From positions 1-64,000 of the forward strand of contig CALUXC010000008.1 of assembly GCA_944324635.1 (NCBI GenBank): a DNA stretch of 64,000 nt, read 5' to 3'. This stretch comes from Candidatus Avelusimicrobium intestinipullorum. Its GTDB lineage: Bacteria; Elusimicrobiota; Elusimicrobia; Elusimicrobiales; Elusimicrobiaceae. Below, piece after piece: positions 13,828 to 58,357 of this stretch (position 1 is its first letter; every line of letters starts with the position of its first letter). Position numbers and translations under genes: made by a program. Under the pieces are notes generated by a model. It did no database searches. It was not told the origin of the DNA and saw only the letters and a program-made list of their open reading frames with translations.

Positions 13828-13901
13828 GCGGGCGTGGTTCAATGGTAGAACGCGACCTTGCCAAGGTTGAGACGAGAGTTCGATTCTCTTCGCCCGCTCC
13901 A
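13828..13901 (+). tRNA. tRNA-Gly (anticodon GCC)
   Basis: The sequence folds as a cloverleaf: acceptor stem GCGGGCG / CGCCCGC, D arm GTTC...GAAC, anticodon stem CGACC / GGTTG around loop TTGCCAA (anticodon GCC), T arm GAGAG TTCGATT CTCTT, and an encoded CCA end at 13899-13901. The gene has its own promoter and terminator. Confidence 0.96.
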
Positions 13902-13967: not shown

Positions 13968-14363
13968 TCACGGGAGTTCCTTAAATAGCTCTTTGGCTTC
14001 TTGAGACAAATTGTCCAAATTATATTTACAGGGTATATTCTCTTCTTTTAGGTACTGTACACCCCATAAATTAAGCGCGGTGATGATAGGGGTAAGAGTT
14101 TTACCTCGTTGAGATAGCGAATATTCCGTTTTGGGGGGAACCACCGGATAGAGTTTTCTCGTAATAATTCCATGTGCTTCTAATTCTTTCAATTGTTGAA
14201 TGAGCATTTTGGGCGTCGCTTGCGGAATCAGTTTTTGCAATTCGTTATAGCGAAGAGTCCTCCCTATCAAGTAACCCAAAATAATCCCTTTATATTTGCC
14301 TCCGATGATACCCATGGTAGCTTCTAACGGGCATTGATATTCTTTGGTTTGCGTTGTTTTCAT
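13968..14363 (-). CDS. HxlR-family winged-helix transcription regulator
   Basis: The 131-residue protein has the HxlR (MarR-like) pattern: a Cys near the start (EYQCPLEATMGIIGGKYKG), the recognition helix region LRYNELQKLIPQATPKMLIQQLKELEAHGII, and the wing VVPPKTEYSLSQRGKTL. HxlR regulators often sense thiol- or carbonyl-reactive compounds and control a neighbouring gene. I chose the ATG at 14363 because the longer frame is a hydrophobic, unrelated extension. It is divergent from the metallo-hydrolase gene, and tandem repeats lie between the two. This region is more A+T-rich than its neighbours, suggesting transfer. Confidence 0.9.
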   Translation of the reverse strand: MKTTQTKEYQCPLEATMGIIGGKYKGIILGYLIGRTLRYNELQKLIPQATPKMLIQQLKELEAHGIITRKLYPVVPPKTEYSLSQRGKTLTPIITALNLWGVQYLKEENIPCKYNLDNLSQEAKELFKELP

Positions 14364-14379
14364 ATGTTTGAAAGCCCTT

Positions 14380-14413
14380 ATTATACAAAAAGTAAGTATT
14401 ATACAAAAAAGTA
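14380..14413. repeat. Tandem direct repeat in the HxlR divergon, candidate operator
   Basis: Two near-identical copies of ATTATACAAAAAGTA lie at 14380-14394 and 14398-14413, the second with one extra A. Read on the minus strand, each contains TATAAT usable as the hxlR -10 box, and together they lie just upstream of the metallo-hydrolase -35. This is the expected place for an autoregulator to bind. Binding is inferred. Confidence 0.6.
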
Positions 14414-14418
14414 CATTC

Positions 14419-14447
14419 TTGCTAAAAATATACCAAAAAACTATGAT
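14419..14447 (+). promoter_or_regulatory. Promoter of the metallo-hydrolase gene
   Basis: TTGCTA (14419-14424), a 17-base spacer and TATGAT (14442-14447). A strong AAGGAGGG Shine-Dalgarno follows at 14454-14461. Confidence 0.7.
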
Positions 14448-14465
14448 GAAGGCAAGGAGGGTATT

Positions 14466-15245
14466 ATGAAAATTACTCAAATTCGCAATGCAACCTTATG
14501 GATTGAATATGGGGGAATTAAATTTTTAATAGACCCTTGGCTGGGGCCTAAAGAATATATGCCCGGGTTTGAAGGTGCAATTCATTCGGAAGTTCGTCAA
14601 CCACATACAAATTTGCCATTCCCTGTGGAAGAAGTCGTGCTCGCGGATGCTGTTATTTTAACTCATGTGCATCCGGACCACTGGGATAGCTATGCCCAAC
14701 AGGCTTTACGTAAGGATATTGAATTTTTAGTTCAGTCCGAGGCGGATAAACAATACATTGAAGCCCAGGGTTTTACCCGCGTACGGGTTCTTGGCACGGA
14801 AGGATTATCCATTGGCGAGGTAAGCTTGTACAAAACCCCTGGCCAACACGGAGAAAGAGCTAAAATTGAACCGGTATGCCGGCAGCAGGGCTTGCCGTAT
14901 GACGCAATGGGAGTCGTTTTGAAAGCGCCTGGCGAAAAAACGCTTTATGTCGCGGGGGACACTATTTTTTGCGATGAAGTAAAACAAACGCTACAATCCT
15001 ATCAGCCGGAGGTTATAATCGTGAATGCTTGCGCCGCACGAGTTGCTAGCGGGGACCGTTTAATTATGGATGCAAATGATGTGGAGCAAACCGCCCTGCA
15101 TGCGCCCGGTGCCGTTTTGATTGCGAGTCATATGGATGAAGTAAGCCACTTATCTCTAACCAGGCAGCAACTACGGGATTTTATCACACGTAAAAAAATG
15201 TCTCAAGTTAAAATTCCTGAGAATGGAGAATCCTTGGAATTTTAA
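14466..15245 (+). CDS. MBL-fold metallo-hydrolase (UlaG/L-type)
   Basis: The 259-residue product has the metallo-beta-lactamase metal site THVHPDHWD (about residues 64-72), YVAGDTIF near residue 162 and SHMDEVSH near residue 222. The opening MKITQIRNATLWIEYGG with FLIDPW resembles the UlaG-like branch, which hydrolyses lactones, phosphodiesters or similar small molecules. The ATG at 14466 follows a strong Shine-Dalgarno. It is probably under control of the adjacent divergent HxlR regulator, pointing to a chemical-stress or detoxification role, but the substrate is unknown. Base composition is A+T-rich compared with flanking genes. Confidence 0.88.
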   Translation: MKITQIRNATLWIEYGGIKFLIDPWLGPKEYMPGFEGAIHSEVRQPHTNLPFPVEEVVLADAVILTHVHPDHWDSYAQQALRKDIEFLVQSEADKQYIEAQGFTRVRVLGTEGLSIGEVSLYKTPGQHGERAKIEPVCRQQGLPYDAMGVVLKAPGEKTLYVAGDTIFCDEVKQTLQSYQPEVIIVNACAARVASGDRLIMDANDVEQTALHAPGAVLIASHMDEVSHLSLTRQQLRDFITRKKMSQVKIPENGESLEF

Positions 15246-51865: not shown

Positions 51866-53233
51866 TTAAAGAGTTTGTTTCTTCCTTTTTCCTTTTTGGT
51901 TCCGCCGCCAGGCCTTTAGCCGCACCACAGCAATCGCCGCCGTGATACACAACACAAATTCAAACGGAGCCCGAAAACGCGCATAAGCGCCAAAAAAGGT
52001 GGAGCCAATTCCCCAAAAATACAAACAATAAACCGCCAGAAAAAAGGTTTCCTTTTTCCTTCTCTTCCATAAACAGAAAAAGCCGCATATTCCCAGCCAT
52101 ACCGTGATAAATACTTCACCGGCGCTTCCCGCAAAGAGCGCCTTGTCCAGTCCTTTTTGCAGCCATTTTTCGTGCATGGCAGAGGTGTGGTTTGACATTT
52201 CTCCCTCCAGCAGGGCTTCGTCGGTTCGGCCGCCGGTAACCAGGCGCGAAATATGCACAAAGTTGGCCCCGAACAAGGTTTTTACGGCCCACAGCGGAGC
52301 GCGGGAAAGTTTATAGAAAAAACTTTCTTTGATTAACGGCAATGCCATGGCTTTGTAAAACTGGACTTGGCGGGCGGGCGGCAAGGAGGAAAATCCGGGC
52401 GGGAGCGCCCTTTCCAGTGCGTCATGCGCCTGCGGCACGGACACGTTAAACTTTTTTGCCAAATAATCTTCGTTCCATATATACAGGTTGTACGCACCAA
52501 CGGACGTAAACCCCTTAAACCCGGTTTGAAGGGCATTTCGGACGTGCCAGCCTCCCACCATAAGCCCTAACGGAAGGGCAAAAAAAGCCAGTATTTTCCA
52601 AATGGGATACGTAAACAATTTCCCCGCCCGAAAGCAAACCAGTAGTATCACGGCGGCAAACGCGAAATAGTAGGCTGCCGGTCTTACGTAAATGGCCGCT
52701 GCCAATAAGGCCGACGCCCATAGCAGAGAACCCGTCTGAAATTTTTTCAAAAACCGCACCAAGAAATAAACAAACCACGCCAGTAAAAACGTGCACAAGG
52801 TTTCGGTCAGTACGGCAAAAGAAAGCGAAAAATACAGTACGCTTGCCGCGCAAAAGCCGGCCGCCCAGCGCGCGGCGGTTTTGCCGGCCAATTCTTTTGC
52901 CGTCAGATAAACGGACACCAGCATGAATAACGAGAGTAAATTTTGTACCGCTACTACCGCCCAAGTGGCATTACCTAGGGCCCATTGAATACCCGCCAGA
53001 AATACAGGATATCCGGGGGTGCGCAACAGCATAGGCGTAGAGGATACCGCTTCCCAAAATGCGCCATATTGCAACCATGTTTGCGCGGGGTACACATAGG
53101 TGAGTGAATCGGGAAAGATAAGCACCGCTTCGCCGAGCGGGTGGCAAAAATAAAGATACGCCAAGGCGCCTGCTTTTAGCAGGGCCAGAATGGCAAAAAT
53201 CCATTGGAAGATGCGGTCTTTGTAAAAAGGCAT
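51866..53233 (-). CDS. GT-C family membrane glycosyltransferase (PMT/ArnT-like)
   Basis: The 455-residue protein has about ten hydrophobic helices. The first external loop holds an acidic residue in IFPDSLTYVYPAQTW (Asp about residue 42) and the motif RTPGYPVFLAG, the pattern of PMT_2/RgtA-like transferases that use polyprenyl-phosphate sugars to modify lipids or proteins on the outer face of the inner membrane. The C-terminus is basic. No Shine-Dalgarno; TACAAT ends 6 bases before the ATG. Confidence 0.85.
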   Translation of the reverse strand: MPFYKDRIFQWIFAILALLKAGALAYLYFCHPLGEAVLIFPDSLTYVYPAQTWLQYGAFWEAVSSTPMLLRTPGYPVFLAGIQWALGNATWAVVAVQNLLSLFMLVSVYLTAKELAGKTAARWAAGFCAASVLYFSLSFAVLTETLCTFLLAWFVYFLVRFLKKFQTGSLLWASALLAAAIYVRPAAYYFAFAAVILLVCFRAGKLFTYPIWKILAFFALPLGLMVGGWHVRNALQTGFKGFTSVGAYNLYIWNEDYLAKKFNVSVPQAHDALERALPPGFSSLPPARQVQFYKAMALPLIKESFFYKLSRAPLWAVKTLFGANFVHISRLVTGGRTDEALLEGEMSNHTSAMHEKWLQKGLDKALFAGSAGEVFITVWLGICGFFCLWKRRKKETFFLAVYCLYFWGIGSTFFGAYARFRAPFEFVLCITAAIAVVRLKAWRRNQKGKRKKQTL

Positions 53234-53245: not shown

Positions 53246-53278
53246 TGAAATTGCGCCGCGCGCGGGAAAGAATTAGAG

Positions 53279-53307
53279 AACCATAAAAAAACCCCGCCGT
53301 AAGGCGG
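53279..53307. repeat. 29-base direct repeat, copy 1 (terminator-like)
   Basis: These 29 bases are identical to 55041-55069. They contain a CCCCGCC-GTAA-GGCGG hairpin and an A run, which on the minus strand is a terminator. No minus-strand gene ends here. The two copies bound the A+T-rich GT2 segment. Confidence 0.75.
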
Positions 53308-53455
53308 AGCAAAGAATAACTACAAAATAAGCTGGATAGTTGTATCAAGATATGCGGTGATAAAGCTGTAGTTCATCTTTGGGGTATAAACAAGCGGAAT
53401 CTCAAGGTATTATATTGAAGTAATGGAAGTGAAAAGAAAGCATGAGTATATTTAG

Positions 53456-53461
53456 TATAAT
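53456..53461 (+). promoter_or_regulatory. -10 box of the GT2 gene
   Basis: A perfect TATAAT lies 38 bases before the chosen start codon; no clear -35 is visible. Confidence 0.55.
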
Positions 53462-53493
53462 AAGCAAAAGATAATGAGAAAAGGAGGATGAAT

Positions 53494-54474
53494 GTGCCAG
53501 TAGTTAGTGTATTAGTTCCCATTTATAATTCTTCTCGCTATTTAACCGCCTGTTTGGATAGTTTAATCCGACAGACATTTACTGATATTGAGATCATTTG
53601 TATGGATGATGGTTCCACGGACAATAGTCTTATCCTTGCGCAAGCGTATGCCAAGAAAGATTCCCGAGTCCATGTTTTTAGCCCTGCCACTCATCAAGGA
53701 ATTGCTAATATACGGAATTTGTTGTTGGAGAAAGCTTCAGGGGAATATATTGCATTTGTCGATTCGGATGATATTGTTGCACCGGACTATTTGGAAGTGT
53801 TATATAGAGAAGCCGTGCAGAGCAATGCAGATATAGTAAGAGGGTTGTATTATCTCTTGGATACCCAAACCAATAAAAGACAACCTTGTACAGAGGTCTA
53901 TAAAGAATTTCTCAGAAAAGAGCCAGATGCCAGGCCTATTAGCCGGTTACAGGCGGCGTTAGATGATACCCAAGTGTGGCTTAAATTAATTCGGACGGAA
54001 GTGATTCGGGCTAATCAAATTAGATTTTTACCGAACAGTTTGGCTGAAGACCTTTCTTTTGAAATTTTGTTGTATCAGTATGCAGATAAAATCCGTTTTG
54101 TGCCGCAGTATTTGTATACGTATAGAGTGGGGAATCCTTTGTCTATATCGGCCCGGAAGTTTTTATGTGCCTGCGGTACCTTGGAAAATTTAATTTTTGC
54201 TTCACAAGAGCTTGTAAGACGCCAAAAAGCAGAATCTACCCTATATACACGCATGGTAGTGTTGATTTTTCACGCTATGCGGCGTTTGCGGAAATTTACA
54301 TCACTTGATGAAAAAAAGCAGGCGGGTAAATTATGCAGGGAAGGCTTTTTGATGATAACACAACGACTTTCTTATATCTCCCCTATAAAACGCATACAAG
54401 TTTATTCGATATGCTGCTTGGCCCGGCTTTTGCCGGACCAGTATTTGCCCTACCTTGCTTCTTGTATAAGATAG
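53494..54474 (+). CDS. GT2-family glycosyltransferase
   Basis: The 326-residue product has a GT-A fold at the N-terminus: VSVLVPIYNSSRYLTACLDS, the nucleotide-sugar motif CMDDGSTDNSL (about residues 38-48) and the DxD-like FVDSDDIV (about 89-96). Such enzymes add sugars to surface polysaccharide or lipid. The C-terminal 120 residues are helical and Arg/Lys-rich. AAGGAGG ends at 53487, directly against an ATG at 53488, so I prefer the in-frame GTG at 53494, 6 bases from the site. The gene is clearly A+T-richer than its neighbours, lies between two 29-base repeats next to tRNA-Ala, and is probably acquired. Confidence 0.85.
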   Translation: MPVVSVLVPIYNSSRYLTACLDSLIRQTFTDIEIICMDDGSTDNSLILAQAYAKKDSRVHVFSPATHQGIANIRNLLLEKASGEYIAFVDSDDIVAPDYLEVLYREAVQSNADIVRGLYYLLDTQTNKRQPCTEVYKEFLRKEPDARPISRLQAALDDTQVWLKLIRTEVIRANQIRFLPNSLAEDLSFEILLYQYADKIRFVPQYLYTYRVGNPLSISARKFLCACGTLENLIFASQELVRRQKAESTLYTRMVVLIFHAMRRLRKFTSLDEKKQAGKLCREGFLMITQRLSYISPIKRIQVYSICCLARLLPDQYLPYLASCIR

Positions 54475-54807
54475 CTGATTATGGACGAGGTTGCTTCCTA
54501 AGGATATATTGGATACGCCCTGCCGGAAAATTTACCAGCATGAAAAGGCGTCGCTTGCTATTGGTTTTATTTATGATGTTGCCGGCATTGTAGATGATTT
54601 TATCCCTTATTCCTTACAACGGATGCACCTGTTCTGTGCGGAAATTTGCGCGGTGGGTTTCGTGTTACCATTAATTTGGGTTGGATATTCCCTATTTATG
54701 GCATATTCCTCGTTGATTAGAATTTCTCTTATGCATCCCTGGGTTGTTCTAAAGTTAAATGCGAATTCTGGGCAGTGTGATTTCGCAGAAAGTATGCTAG
54801 CGGGGTA

Positions 54808-55008
54808 TTAAAACTGTTTTTTCAATAAGCTTTTATCATCTATAAATTTCTGTTGACCCGATACTTTGCCGCGCTTTAGAGCCGCAACTAACGAATATGA
54901 GTGCTTTTCCAAAATATAAAATGATGACCGCAGCAAAGATTCCAGTGTTTTCTTATAATCCTCACTGTTCACGCTCTTTGCTTGGCTGAAAAGGGAAGTG
55001 GCTTGTGT
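54808..55008 (-). pseudogene. Remnant of the 3' end of a coding gene
   Basis: On the minus strand this frame reads like real protein (SLFSQAKSVNSEDYKKTLES, HSYSLVAALKRGKVSGQQKF) and ends with a proper TAA at 54810-54808. The open frame goes back only to a stop at 55011-55009 and has no ATG; the sole start is GTG 54972, with a poor Shine-Dalgarno. I read it as the tail of a gene lost when the segment was rearranged. It might instead be a 54-residue gene. The remaining sequence 54475-54807 has only weak frames. Confidence 0.5.
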
Positions 55009-55040
55009 TTAAGATAATAGTATCAGGCAGAGGGGAAAGG

Positions 55041-55069
55041 AACCATAAAAAAACCCCGCCGTAAGGCGG
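55041..55069. repeat. 29-base direct repeat, copy 2 (tRNA-Ala terminator)
   Basis: Identical to 53279-53307. On the minus strand its GGCGG / CCGCC hairpin is followed by TTTTTTT, 14 bases after the tRNA-Ala 3' end, so this copy is the natural tRNA terminator. Confidence 0.8.
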
Positions 55070-55083
55070 GGTAACATTTCAAA

Positions 55084-55159
55084 TGGTGGACCTGACAAGG
55101 ATCGAACTTGCGACCTCCTGCATGCCATGCAGGCGCTCTCCCAGCTGAGCTACAGGCCC
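55084..55159 (-). tRNA. tRNA-Ala (anticodon GGC)
   Basis: On the minus strand the sequence folds into a cloverleaf: acceptor stem GGGCCTG / CAGGTCC, D arm GCTC / GAGC, anticodon stem CCTGC / GCAGG around ATGGCAT (anticodon GGC), T arm GCAAG TTCGATC CTTGT, discriminator A and encoded CCA (55086-55084). Confidence 0.96.
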
Positions 55160-55258: not shown

Positions 55259-58200
55259 TTAGAACTGGAACGAGACGTTCACTTCTCCGCCGAAGCCTTC
55301 GCGCTTGCCCACCTGGCCGTATACGGTCAGTACCGTGTGCAAGGGCAGGAAGGTATCCGTGTTGTGATAGGCCAAAGATACCTGGCCGCGTCCGCTCAAG
55401 CCTTTAAGCGAAGCATCGCTGTTGGTCATGTCTTCTACGGTAACGGAGGATTCGCCGTCCATTTCGTAGATACCGCTCAAGCCAAAGGCCGGGGTCAAAC
55501 CGCCCAAGTCCAGCGAGGAGAGCGTATAGTCCGCGCCGAAGCGTACGGCCAAGCTCTGCATAGCGTCAAACTGGATTTTCTGGGCCAGGTTGTCGGTGAT
55601 ATCGTCTTTTTCTTTGCGCAGCCATTGAATGTTGGCAAAGAGGTTCAAGTCCTGCAGCGGGGTTTCCACAAAGCCCGCATTGGCGCCGTAGTACAGCCCG
55701 GTGCTGCTAAATTCGGAAAGCAGTTCGCCGGAGTTGAATTCCATATCCAGGTAACCCGCTTCCGCGCTGATTTCCAAGCGGCCGGTTTCGCTGTAGCGCA
55801 AGGAGGACATAAGCCCGCCGCCAAAGCCGTTGGCGCTGCCGTTTACTTTAATCGGGAAGGTTTCGTAGGAGCCGCCCGCGTATTTGGCAAAGAAGCCCAA
55901 TACCCAGTCGTCCGTGAATTTTTTCCACGCACCGGCGTGCACAATACCGGAGTCCAAATCAAAGCCGCTACCCGTTTCGTAGCGGGTGTGGTGATAACCG
56001 CCGTTTACGAAGGTGTTTTGTTCCGTATCGCTCTTCCAGATATCGTTCATGGTTTGGTTGAGCATTTCGGGCCCTTCGCTTACTAAGGCCAATCCAACCA
56101 GCGGCAGCTGGCCGTACATTTCCACATTGGCTTTGTCTTTGTGGCTGGCCAGCGTCCATTCCAACACATCGCCGTTTAATTCCGGCGTAAGGGTGAAGGA
56201 ATAGGCGCCCATTTTGTTGCTGGAGAGCGTTACGTCGGACGTGTATTTAATGCAGTTCGGATCGCCGTTGCATTCCACGGGGCCGTAGCCGTCCAGGATT
56301 TCGCCGGGCGTGCGGATAATTTCCGTAGCGGCGTGTTCTTTCATGGCCGAGGAGTCCAGCGTCAGCAAGGCGTGTACGTCGCTGCCGGTGAATTCCAGGC
56401 GGGTATCAAAGTTACCAATGATATTGGTCTGTTGATTAAAGTTTTTGAAGTTGGCCAAATCGTAGGAAACGAAATCGTTCCCGTTGGCGATGTTCTTAAA
56501 GACCAGTTTGTTCGTATCGGCGTAATAAGAGTTAGAACCGCCGTATACCGTGCCGTTTACCTGCGTATTGCCGGACAATACAACCGTGTTGTTTTTGGCC
56601 AGCATATTTTCTTGTTTCAATTCGGCACCGTCTACATATCCGCCGTATATATTTCCGTTCAAGGTCACGTTATCCAGGATAATCGTGTTGTTGGACGCGC
56701 TCAGCTGGTCGTCCACAAATTCGGCTTCTTCCGTGGTGGTTTCCACGGTGGAAGTGCCTTGGCCGGTGCTTTCGTCATAGGAGGTGGTAGTGGTGGTCGT
56801 GGTGGTGACGAGTCCGTCTTTTACCACTTCCACTTTTTCCGTTACGCGGCCTTGTTCGTCTTTCGTTTCCGTGCAGTAATTAACTTCGCGCACATAAGAC
56901 GCAAAACCGCCAATGACGTTAGCGTTAAACGTGCCGCCCTGCAAGGAAACAATGTTGTTGTTGGCGGAAGTACCAAACCCGTTGATTACTTCTTCCGGGG
57001 CCGTTTCCGACGGGGTGGTGTTCACCGTGCTGGTGTAGTCCGAAGTGACGCCGCCAAAAATGTACCCGTGGGTGGTATCCAACGCGGGGGCAATGGGGTT
57101 ACCCAATTTGGTTTCGGTTCCCAACAACTTGTGAGAAATCAAGTTTTGCGGATCCATAATTCCGCCGAATGTATAGTCGCTGTCGTAGTTCAGGGTAATG
57201 TCGGAATTTTTAATGGACACCATGTTATTGCTGGGGTTTTCCGTAAAGTTGATCGTAGCACCGATTTCATATCCGGTCATGGGCGTATCGGCGATGGACA
57301 GCGTGTTGTAGTTGGTCGTACCGGAAATGGTGTTGGAATTGTCTTCTAACCCGTGAATCATTCTCACCGTATAGAGCGTACCGTTGGCAACGGTAGAGTT
57401 TTGAATGTTCATCGTGTTGTGGCTGGCGTTGTTGTTATTGGCGTCCACGGCGGCGGCAGACTGCACGCTGGAACCGTTTAACAAGTCCAGGCGGTTGTAG
57501 TCAAACGTGCCGGTAGCCACGGAATCGTCGTGCAAGGTAAATCCGCTTTTCGCCGCAATCACTTTTCCGTTAACGGTAGCGCCATCAAGTACAACCTTGT
57601 TGTTGTTGCCTACCACGCCGCCGTAGGAACCGTACACGTCGCCGGCAACGGTGGAATCGGTGATATAGACGCTGTTTTTATTGTTGTTGCGGTTAGCGGT
57701 GATATCGGGGTGGTTGTCTACTTCTTCCTGAGTGGTTTGCACATAGGAAAGACCGCCCACCACGGCACCATTAATTTGAGAACCGGTAATATTGACCGTG
57801 TTTCCGGCGGCATCGCCAAGATAGTATTGGGAAGCGCCGCCCGCTACGGCTACCGGGTTGTTGCCAATGGCAAAAACAGAGTTGGAGGTTTGGGGCGCTA
57901 CGGTGATGGTGGAGTTGGTAATGTTGACCGTGTTGTTGGTAGCGTTACCGGTTCCCCACTTTTCGGCGTCCACCGCGTCGGCGCGGTTCGTGCGGGACAA
58001 CCCGCCCGCCACAGCGCGGCCTTCAATGGTGGCGCCCGTGATGTTAACGGTGTTTCCGTCCGCCGTATTGGCGTAAACGGCACCGCCGGCAATATAGTGG
58101 TTCCACTGTCCTTCGGGCACGGTGGTATCCGATTCCGAGATGTCGGTGGAGATATTCACTGTATTGTTGGAAGCGGAGCTGTTATACGAGGCACCGCCCG

Positions 58201-58357
58201 CAATCATTTTATTTGTGGCGTCCTGACTCAAGGGGGCGTTGATTGTTAAGGTTTTTCCGTCTACCGGGCCCGCCGTTTCAATGGGGTCGTACGTCTGGGC
58301 ACCAGCTACGGAAGCCAAACAAAACGCAAGAATCAGTCCTGCAGTCAAATTCTTCAT
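55259..58357 (-). CDS. Autotransporter-type outer-membrane protein
   Basis: The 1032-residue product has a signal peptide (MKNLTAGLILAFCLASVAGA), a long passenger and a C-terminal beta barrel. The passenger (about residues 22-740) repeats NNTVNIT-like strands (GNTVNITGATIEG, NNTVNITNSTI, GNTVNITGSQING), a beta-helix pattern. An eight-Thr stretch occurs near residue 520. The barrel (about 760-1032) alternates polar and aromatic residues and ends in FQF, the outer-membrane sorting signal. CGGAGG precedes the ATG. It is a paralogue of the incomplete gene at the right edge. The role is surface exposure, probably adhesion, by inference. Confidence 0.88.
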   Translation of the reverse strand: MKNLTAGLILAFCLASVAGAQTYDPIETAGPVDGKTLTINAPLSQDATNKMIAGGASYNSSASNNTVNISTDISESDTTVPEGQWNHYIAGGAVYANTADGNTVNITGATIEGRAVAGGLSRTNRADAVDAEKWGTGNATNNTVNITNSTITVAPQTSNSVFAIGNNPVAVAGGASQYYLGDAAGNTVNITGSQINGAVVGGLSYVQTTQEEVDNHPDITANRNNNKNSVYITDSTVAGDVYGSYGGVVGNNNKVVLDGATVNGKVIAAKSGFTLHDDSVATGTFDYNRLDLLNGSSVQSAAAVDANNNNASHNTMNIQNSTVANGTLYTVRMIHGLEDNSNTISGTTNYNTLSIADTPMTGYEIGATINFTENPSNNMVSIKNSDITLNYDSDYTFGGIMDPQNLISHKLLGTETKLGNPIAPALDTTHGYIFGGVTSDYTSTVNTTPSETAPEEVINGFGTSANNNIVSLQGGTFNANVIGGFASYVREVNYCTETKDEQGRVTEKVEVVKDGLVTTTTTTTTSYDESTGQGTSTVETTTEEAEFVDDQLSASNNTIILDNVTLNGNIYGGYVDGAELKQENMLAKNNTVVLSGNTQVNGTVYGGSNSYYADTNKLVFKNIANGNDFVSYDLANFKNFNQQTNIIGNFDTRLEFTGSDVHALLTLDSSAMKEHAATEIIRTPGEILDGYGPVECNGDPNCIKYTSDVTLSSNKMGAYSFTLTPELNGDVLEWTLASHKDKANVEMYGQLPLVGLALVSEGPEMLNQTMNDIWKSDTEQNTFVNGGYHHTRYETGSGFDLDSGIVHAGAWKKFTDDWVLGFFAKYAGGSYETFPIKVNGSANGFGGGLMSSLRYSETGRLEISAEAGYLDMEFNSGELLSEFSSTGLYYGANAGFVETPLQDLNLFANIQWLRKEKDDITDNLAQKIQFDAMQSLAVRFGADYTLSSLDLGGLTPAFGLSGIYEMDGESSVTVEDMTNSDASLKGLSGRGQVSLAYHNTDTFLPLHTVLTVYGQVGKREGFGGEVNVSFQF

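Follow-up and report, generated by a model that had tools for sequence, protein, structure and literature searches.

How an A+T-rich glycosyltransferase segment came to lie beside a tRNA-Ala gene, with the terminator of that gene on both of its sides, is the question raised by the locus described here. The locus was analyzed within a stretch of 64,000 nucleotides (the window), which is located on contig C8 of a 1.57-Mb genome assembled in nine contigs.

Terminator Repeat

The tRNA-Ala (GGC) gene occupies positions 55084-55159 on the minus strand and its transcript is terminated at 55040-55069 on the same strand. The same 30 bases were found at 53278-53307 without a mismatch, and a minus-strand terminator fold was predicted for both copies (-14.3 and -18.0 kcal/mol). 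The initial annotation had reported an exact duplicate of 29 bases; the duplication is indeed exact, but its length is 30 bases. The left copy is terminator-shaped and, as also noted initially, no minus-strand gene ends there. Extension of the homology beyond the 30 bases was evaluated using an anchored alignment against 2000 shuffled sequences, and the observed score was reached by 584 of the 2000 shuffles on the left side and by all 2000 on the right side. A longer gapped repeat through the GGGAAAG motif, seven bases ahead of the 30-mer, was rejected, as shuffled sequences scored equally well.

The motif AAAAAACCCCGC was seen five times in the window with 0.12 expected, as might be the case if stereotyped terminators were common in this genome and two of them had become alike by chance. 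This explanation is highly improbable. The 27-base core of the repeat has two exact copies in its own genome, and the next best places (three) deviate at 2-3 of the 27 bases, whereas the pair is exact over 30. The 66 genomes of the genus contained no further exact copy of the core and eight places with two mismatches, so a chance repeat was rejected and numerous copies at unrelated terminators were not found.

Composition and Content of the Segment

The insert between the two copies (53308-55039) has a GC content of 0.395, compared with 0.512 for the window, and the stretch with the lowest GC begins at 53301 when 1732-base stretches are taken every 100 bases along the window. It starts on the plus strand with an A+T-rich leader (53308-53487; GC 0.32) containing an AGGAGG-type ribosome-binding site ahead of the next gene, an intact family 2 glycosyltransferase gene (GT2; 53488-54474, plus strand; 328 aa; PF00535). 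The deviating base composition proposed at the outset extends to codon usage: of the 47 ORFs in the window that are 150 aa or longer, GT2 ranks last in both GC3 (0.38) and codon score. The remaining 565 bases (54475-55039) have no recognizable content. A broken gene had been proposed for this stretch, and short open frames do occur there on both strands (the longest named one at 54491-54811 on the plus strand, and a 66-aa frame at 54811-55008 on the minus strand), but no convincing relative was found for any of them. Thus, the stretch is probably decayed DNA rather than a broken gene that can be named.

A second A+T-rich cassette was observed in the window at 13968-15245, adjoining a tRNA-Gly gene (13828-13901). 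It contains divergent genes for an HxlR-type regulator and an MBL-fold hydrolase, the latter with the second lowest GC3 among the 47 ORFs (0.39). No flanking repeats longer than 16 nt were found around this cassette.

The Site in Related Genomes

The conserved left neighbor of the segment is a gene of a PMT_2-family glycosyltransferase (51866-53233, minus strand). This gene and tRNA-Ala were located in 66 genomes of the genus, and the counts were made by hand from the resulting tables. A PMT_2 match was present in 31 genomes; after exclusion of G078 (short weak match), G005, G019, G044 and G061 (neighbors on two contigs) and G004 (no tRNA match), both neighbors were on one contig in 25. Three genomes with the tRNA pointing the opposite way (G011, G015 and G022) were set apart, which left 22 with the orientation of the window, i.e., 21 relatives. 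In G011, a pilin-like insert of 837 bp was seen beside the oppositely oriented tRNA.

The PMT_2 start and the tRNA were 49-311 bp apart in 18 of the 21 relatives, compared with 1850 bp in the window. Subtraction of the insert and one repeat from the window gap gives 88 bp, which is inside the range of the relatives. Most of the gap sequences that were read contained a single terminator, while G041 contained two, and in G018 a pair of terminators was accompanied by an incomplete copy of the tRNA. The three remaining relatives were G014 and G024, where the site is occupied, and G062, which has repeated terminators. DNA of the segment was absent from the other 89 genomes of the family, except that 13 gave short matches to GT2; within the genus, the segment is present in one genome of 66, both by DNA and by position. 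An empty site with one terminator therefore exists in related species, as the initial annotation had anticipated, and relatives carrying the same segment between drifted repeats were not encountered among the 89 genomes; the comparison is one between species, not strains.

The terminators at the tRNA-Ala site of the relatives differ in sequence from that of the window. Since the two copies in the window are still exact over 30 bases, the doubling is recent and specific to this lineage. The same observations bear on the opposite order of events, in which the segment would be ancestral and would have been deleted between the repeats in the sister species. Direct repeats do permit a clean deletion, and the predicted product of 88 bp resembles the sister species. 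Nevertheless, with the segment found in one of 66 genus genomes and the repeat still exact while the terminators of sister species have diverged, an ancestral segment is very unlikely.

The two occupied sites contain other surface-sugar genes. In G014, a lone rfbA gene, the only close rfbA of that genome, lies at the tRNA-Ala site (L028:4087-4956). It was observed to be 78% identical to an rfbA found at another place in the relative G012. In G024 (L155, L156), an exopolysaccharide-type cluster of 21.6 kb lies between the same two neighbors; a phosphatase and a beta-barrel protein were identified in it using Pfam, and ligase-, export- and glycosyltransferase-like genes were recognized by eye. 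The surface-sugar genes thus differ between the window (GT2), G014 (rfbA) and G024 (the cluster), which makes the interval from the PMT_2 start to the tRNA-Ala terminator a variable site of this Elusimicrobium-like genus. At the far end of the G014 and G024 genes the terminator is not repeated, which indicates that terminator doubling is no general mark of insertion at this site.

Family and Source of the Glycosyltransferase

The GT2 protein matched the PF00535 profile with 118.8 bits (curated cut-off 23.3; E 3e-34), and no NCBIfam equivalog was found above its cut-off. Matches were present in 86 of the 90 family genomes (E <= 0.001), the best of them being full length with 45-53% identity, and no second match was found in its own genome. 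In eight of the ten loci that were read, the next gene after the GT2-type gene resembled rfbA, with genes resembling rfbC, rfbD and rfbB behind it; these names are based on reading the first residues, the rfbA of G014 being the only one tested. The GT2 genes ahead of the rfbACDB-like genes (L205-L211, L213) belong to the same clade as the window GT2 and share 44-53% identity with it over the full length. In contrast to them, the window GT2 stands alone beside tRNA-Ala, in a genome without a close rfbA (best match 33%). None of the 14 best GT2 homologues had a tRNA within 1.5 kb.

Phylogenetic analysis placed the window GT2 together with 16 other sequences of the genus (support 100/97), although the inner placement was not resolved and the outgroup branches were long. 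Among named genomes, the closest matches were from uncultured Elusimicrobiales and Elusimicrobium. A recent import from a distant phylum is unlikely according to the tree, and the full-length matches of 44-45% identity were from Elusimicrobiales; matches from other phyla had at most 50% identity and covered roughly one third of the protein length. A phage origin was also rejected, as viral contigs yielded matches of 24-35% identity or pieces of 42-62 residues, and so was a plasmid origin, for which no DNA match was found.

Across the ten loci, the GC content of the GT2-type gene ranged from 0.36 to 0.57 and was below that of its locus in seven, so that a low GC content is in part typical of genes of this class. 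Membership in an Elusimicrobium-specific clade, usually ahead of rfbACDB-like genes, makes a distant source unlikely, and the low G+C content is thus not a sign of a distant donor. The sequence comparisons point to the genus itself as the most likely source of GT2. Its product may add or change a sugar of a surface polysaccharide.

Two false joins at the 30-base repeat during metagenome assembly could produce the observed arrangement, given that a short exact repeat lies at both joins. Such a fault would, however, require two joins at the same repeat in a genome of only nine contigs, with an insert whose gene comes from the same genus, and we consider it a very improbable explanation.

Neighboring Genes and Mobility Functions

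No integrase was found inside the segment, where GT2 is the only intact gene, and none lies beside it, in agreement with the proposal that none had been left behind. The location next to a tRNA gene, the direct repeats at both ends and the differing composition could indicate the remnant of an integrase-borne tRNA island, with the repeats as attachment sites and the integrase lost, and a tyrosine recombinase gene is present on the same contig approximately 13 kb beyond the tRNA. The tRNA-gene islands of Islander (PMC4383910) likewise lie beside a tRNA gene with a direct repeat at both ends. A displaced tRNA fragment is the expected mark of the islands of tyrosine integrases (PMC4383910). There is no such fragment here: the tRNA 3' end is not duplicated near the left repeat, and the repeat, being external to the tRNA gene, includes none of its bases. 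The segment also differs from the Islander islands in that its repeat is a terminator rather than part of a tRNA, in having no integrase and in carrying one gene only. In addition, the recombinase gene adjoins a Fic-like gene and no tRNA, and the core of the repeat is missing there. Such an island remnant is therefore improbable.

The tyrosine recombinase and the Fic-like gene, the latter recognized by eye, were located on contig C8 outside the window (L247:6996-9179), near the contig end. Two long proteins with NNT/NNxV repeats and a barrel-like end, autotransporter-like by eye, were also observed, one encoded in the window (55259-58357) and the other at L247:2634-5618. The former had no Pfam match at E <= 0.001.

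Terminator Arrays Downstream of tRNA-Ala Genes

A survey of terminators covered 65 loci: 60 from the genus (59 genomes, including that of the window), four from another family and one other tRNA of G009. The second contig of G003, as well as G017 and G075, had no full tRNA or flank and were left out. Among the 59 genus genomes, a second terminator copy of at least 20 bases located beyond 500 bp was found in the window only. A second copy of at least 20 bases within 500 bp downstream of tRNA-Ala, with no gene between, was found in 9 of the 58 relatives (G006, G041, G044, G047, G049, G060, G061, G062 and G065).

Some tRNA-Ala genes are followed by one to three units of approximately 94-139 bp per locus, each containing a copy of the last 30-40 tRNA bases and a terminator. 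Such units were revealed in 13 of the 66 genus genomes and in four loci of another family that were examined. They were found at L179 (G060), L171 (G047), L184 (G061), L174/L175 (G003), L034 (G011), L033 (G015), L176 (G046), L177 (G044), L194 (G057), L032 (G018) and L045 (G019), and these genomes partly overlap those with a near second terminator. A model built from 12 units of 11 genomes gave hits in those 11 and in G043 and G075; in the genome of the window it matched nothing but the tRNA itself. In several units the T-loop part reads TTGGGTC instead of TTCGATC, with the acceptor strand unaltered. RNAalifold predicted seven pairs for the units, none of them changed on both sides, and an Rfam search of 13 sources found tRNA only. 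Without covariation support, the units are not claimed to be structured RNAs.

The rtT RNA repeats of enterobacteria are linked to a tRNA-Tyr gene. rtT is listed as a variable repeat of 175 bp (PMC2658671). The short units downstream of the tRNA in relatives of the window genome resemble repeats of this type, whereas the window itself has the doubled terminator and no such unit.

These arrays suggest another order of events, in which a tandem doubling of the terminator came first and was followed by entry of the GT2 segment, either between the two copies or in place of the central part of an array. The gene-free second terminators in nine of 58 relatives, including G041 and G062 with the same PMT_2 neighbor, allow tandem duplication to predate the insertion, and the tRNA 3'-end units in 13 of 66 genomes are consistent with it. 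On the other hand, in most of these arrays the homology reaches past the terminator and includes the 3' part of the tRNA or the sequence preceding it, while in the window it stops at 30 bases and the tRNA 3' end is not duplicated. As the homology here ends at the terminator, a duplication preceding the insertion is ranked second, as a possible but rather unlikely course.

Discussion

On balance, the locus is probably the product of an insertion at a variable spot, in which a GT2 segment of about 1.7 kb entered and the tRNA-Ala terminator ended up on both sides. The earlier proposal of an insertion or duplication-driven acquisition thus stands as regards insertion, given the empty site in relatives, but duplication as its driver is not shown, and the doubling, which nine of 58 relatives have without a gene, may be older than the insertion. 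In the proposed course, a segment with one self-contained GT2 gene and decayed DNA would have been drawn from the rhamnose-cluster glycosyltransferases present within the genus and would have entered the gap between PMT_2 and tRNA-Ala. Entry may have proceeded via recombination at the terminator without an integrase, for example of a fragment or circle with a matching terminator end, and a doubling through such recombination in the course of insertion is favored. A donor copy of the segment was not found among the family genomes.

Hotspots without mobility genes (PMC5635113) are similar in having conserved neighbors, accessory genes that vary between genomes and no integrase in the interval. 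Such chromosomal hotspots are explained there through homologous recombination at the flanking genes (PMC5635113). In contrast to those hotspots, the present case is at the species level and includes few occupied sites, one of them with a doubled terminator. The doubled terminator is the sole unusual point, and no paper on the tRNA-Ala/PMT_2 site was found in the open-licence literature.

A broader, speculative possibility, which we regard as doubtful, is that the 3' side of tRNA-Ala, comprising the terminator hairpin and the tRNA 3'-end copies, serves as a recurrent recombination anchor, in which tandem copies of the terminator would enable integrase-free capture and exchange of single surface-sugar genes. 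The role of terminators as exchange anchors could be tested with the short repeats that follow tRNA-Ala in relatives.

Overall, the locus has the appearance of a rather ordinary insertion of a gene at a variable site, with no visible mobile element. The empty-site comparison indicates that, in an uncultured lineage, one surface-sugar gene can be gained next to a tRNA with no mobility gene present, and it reveals a site of polysaccharide-gene turnover in Elusimicrobium-like genomes.
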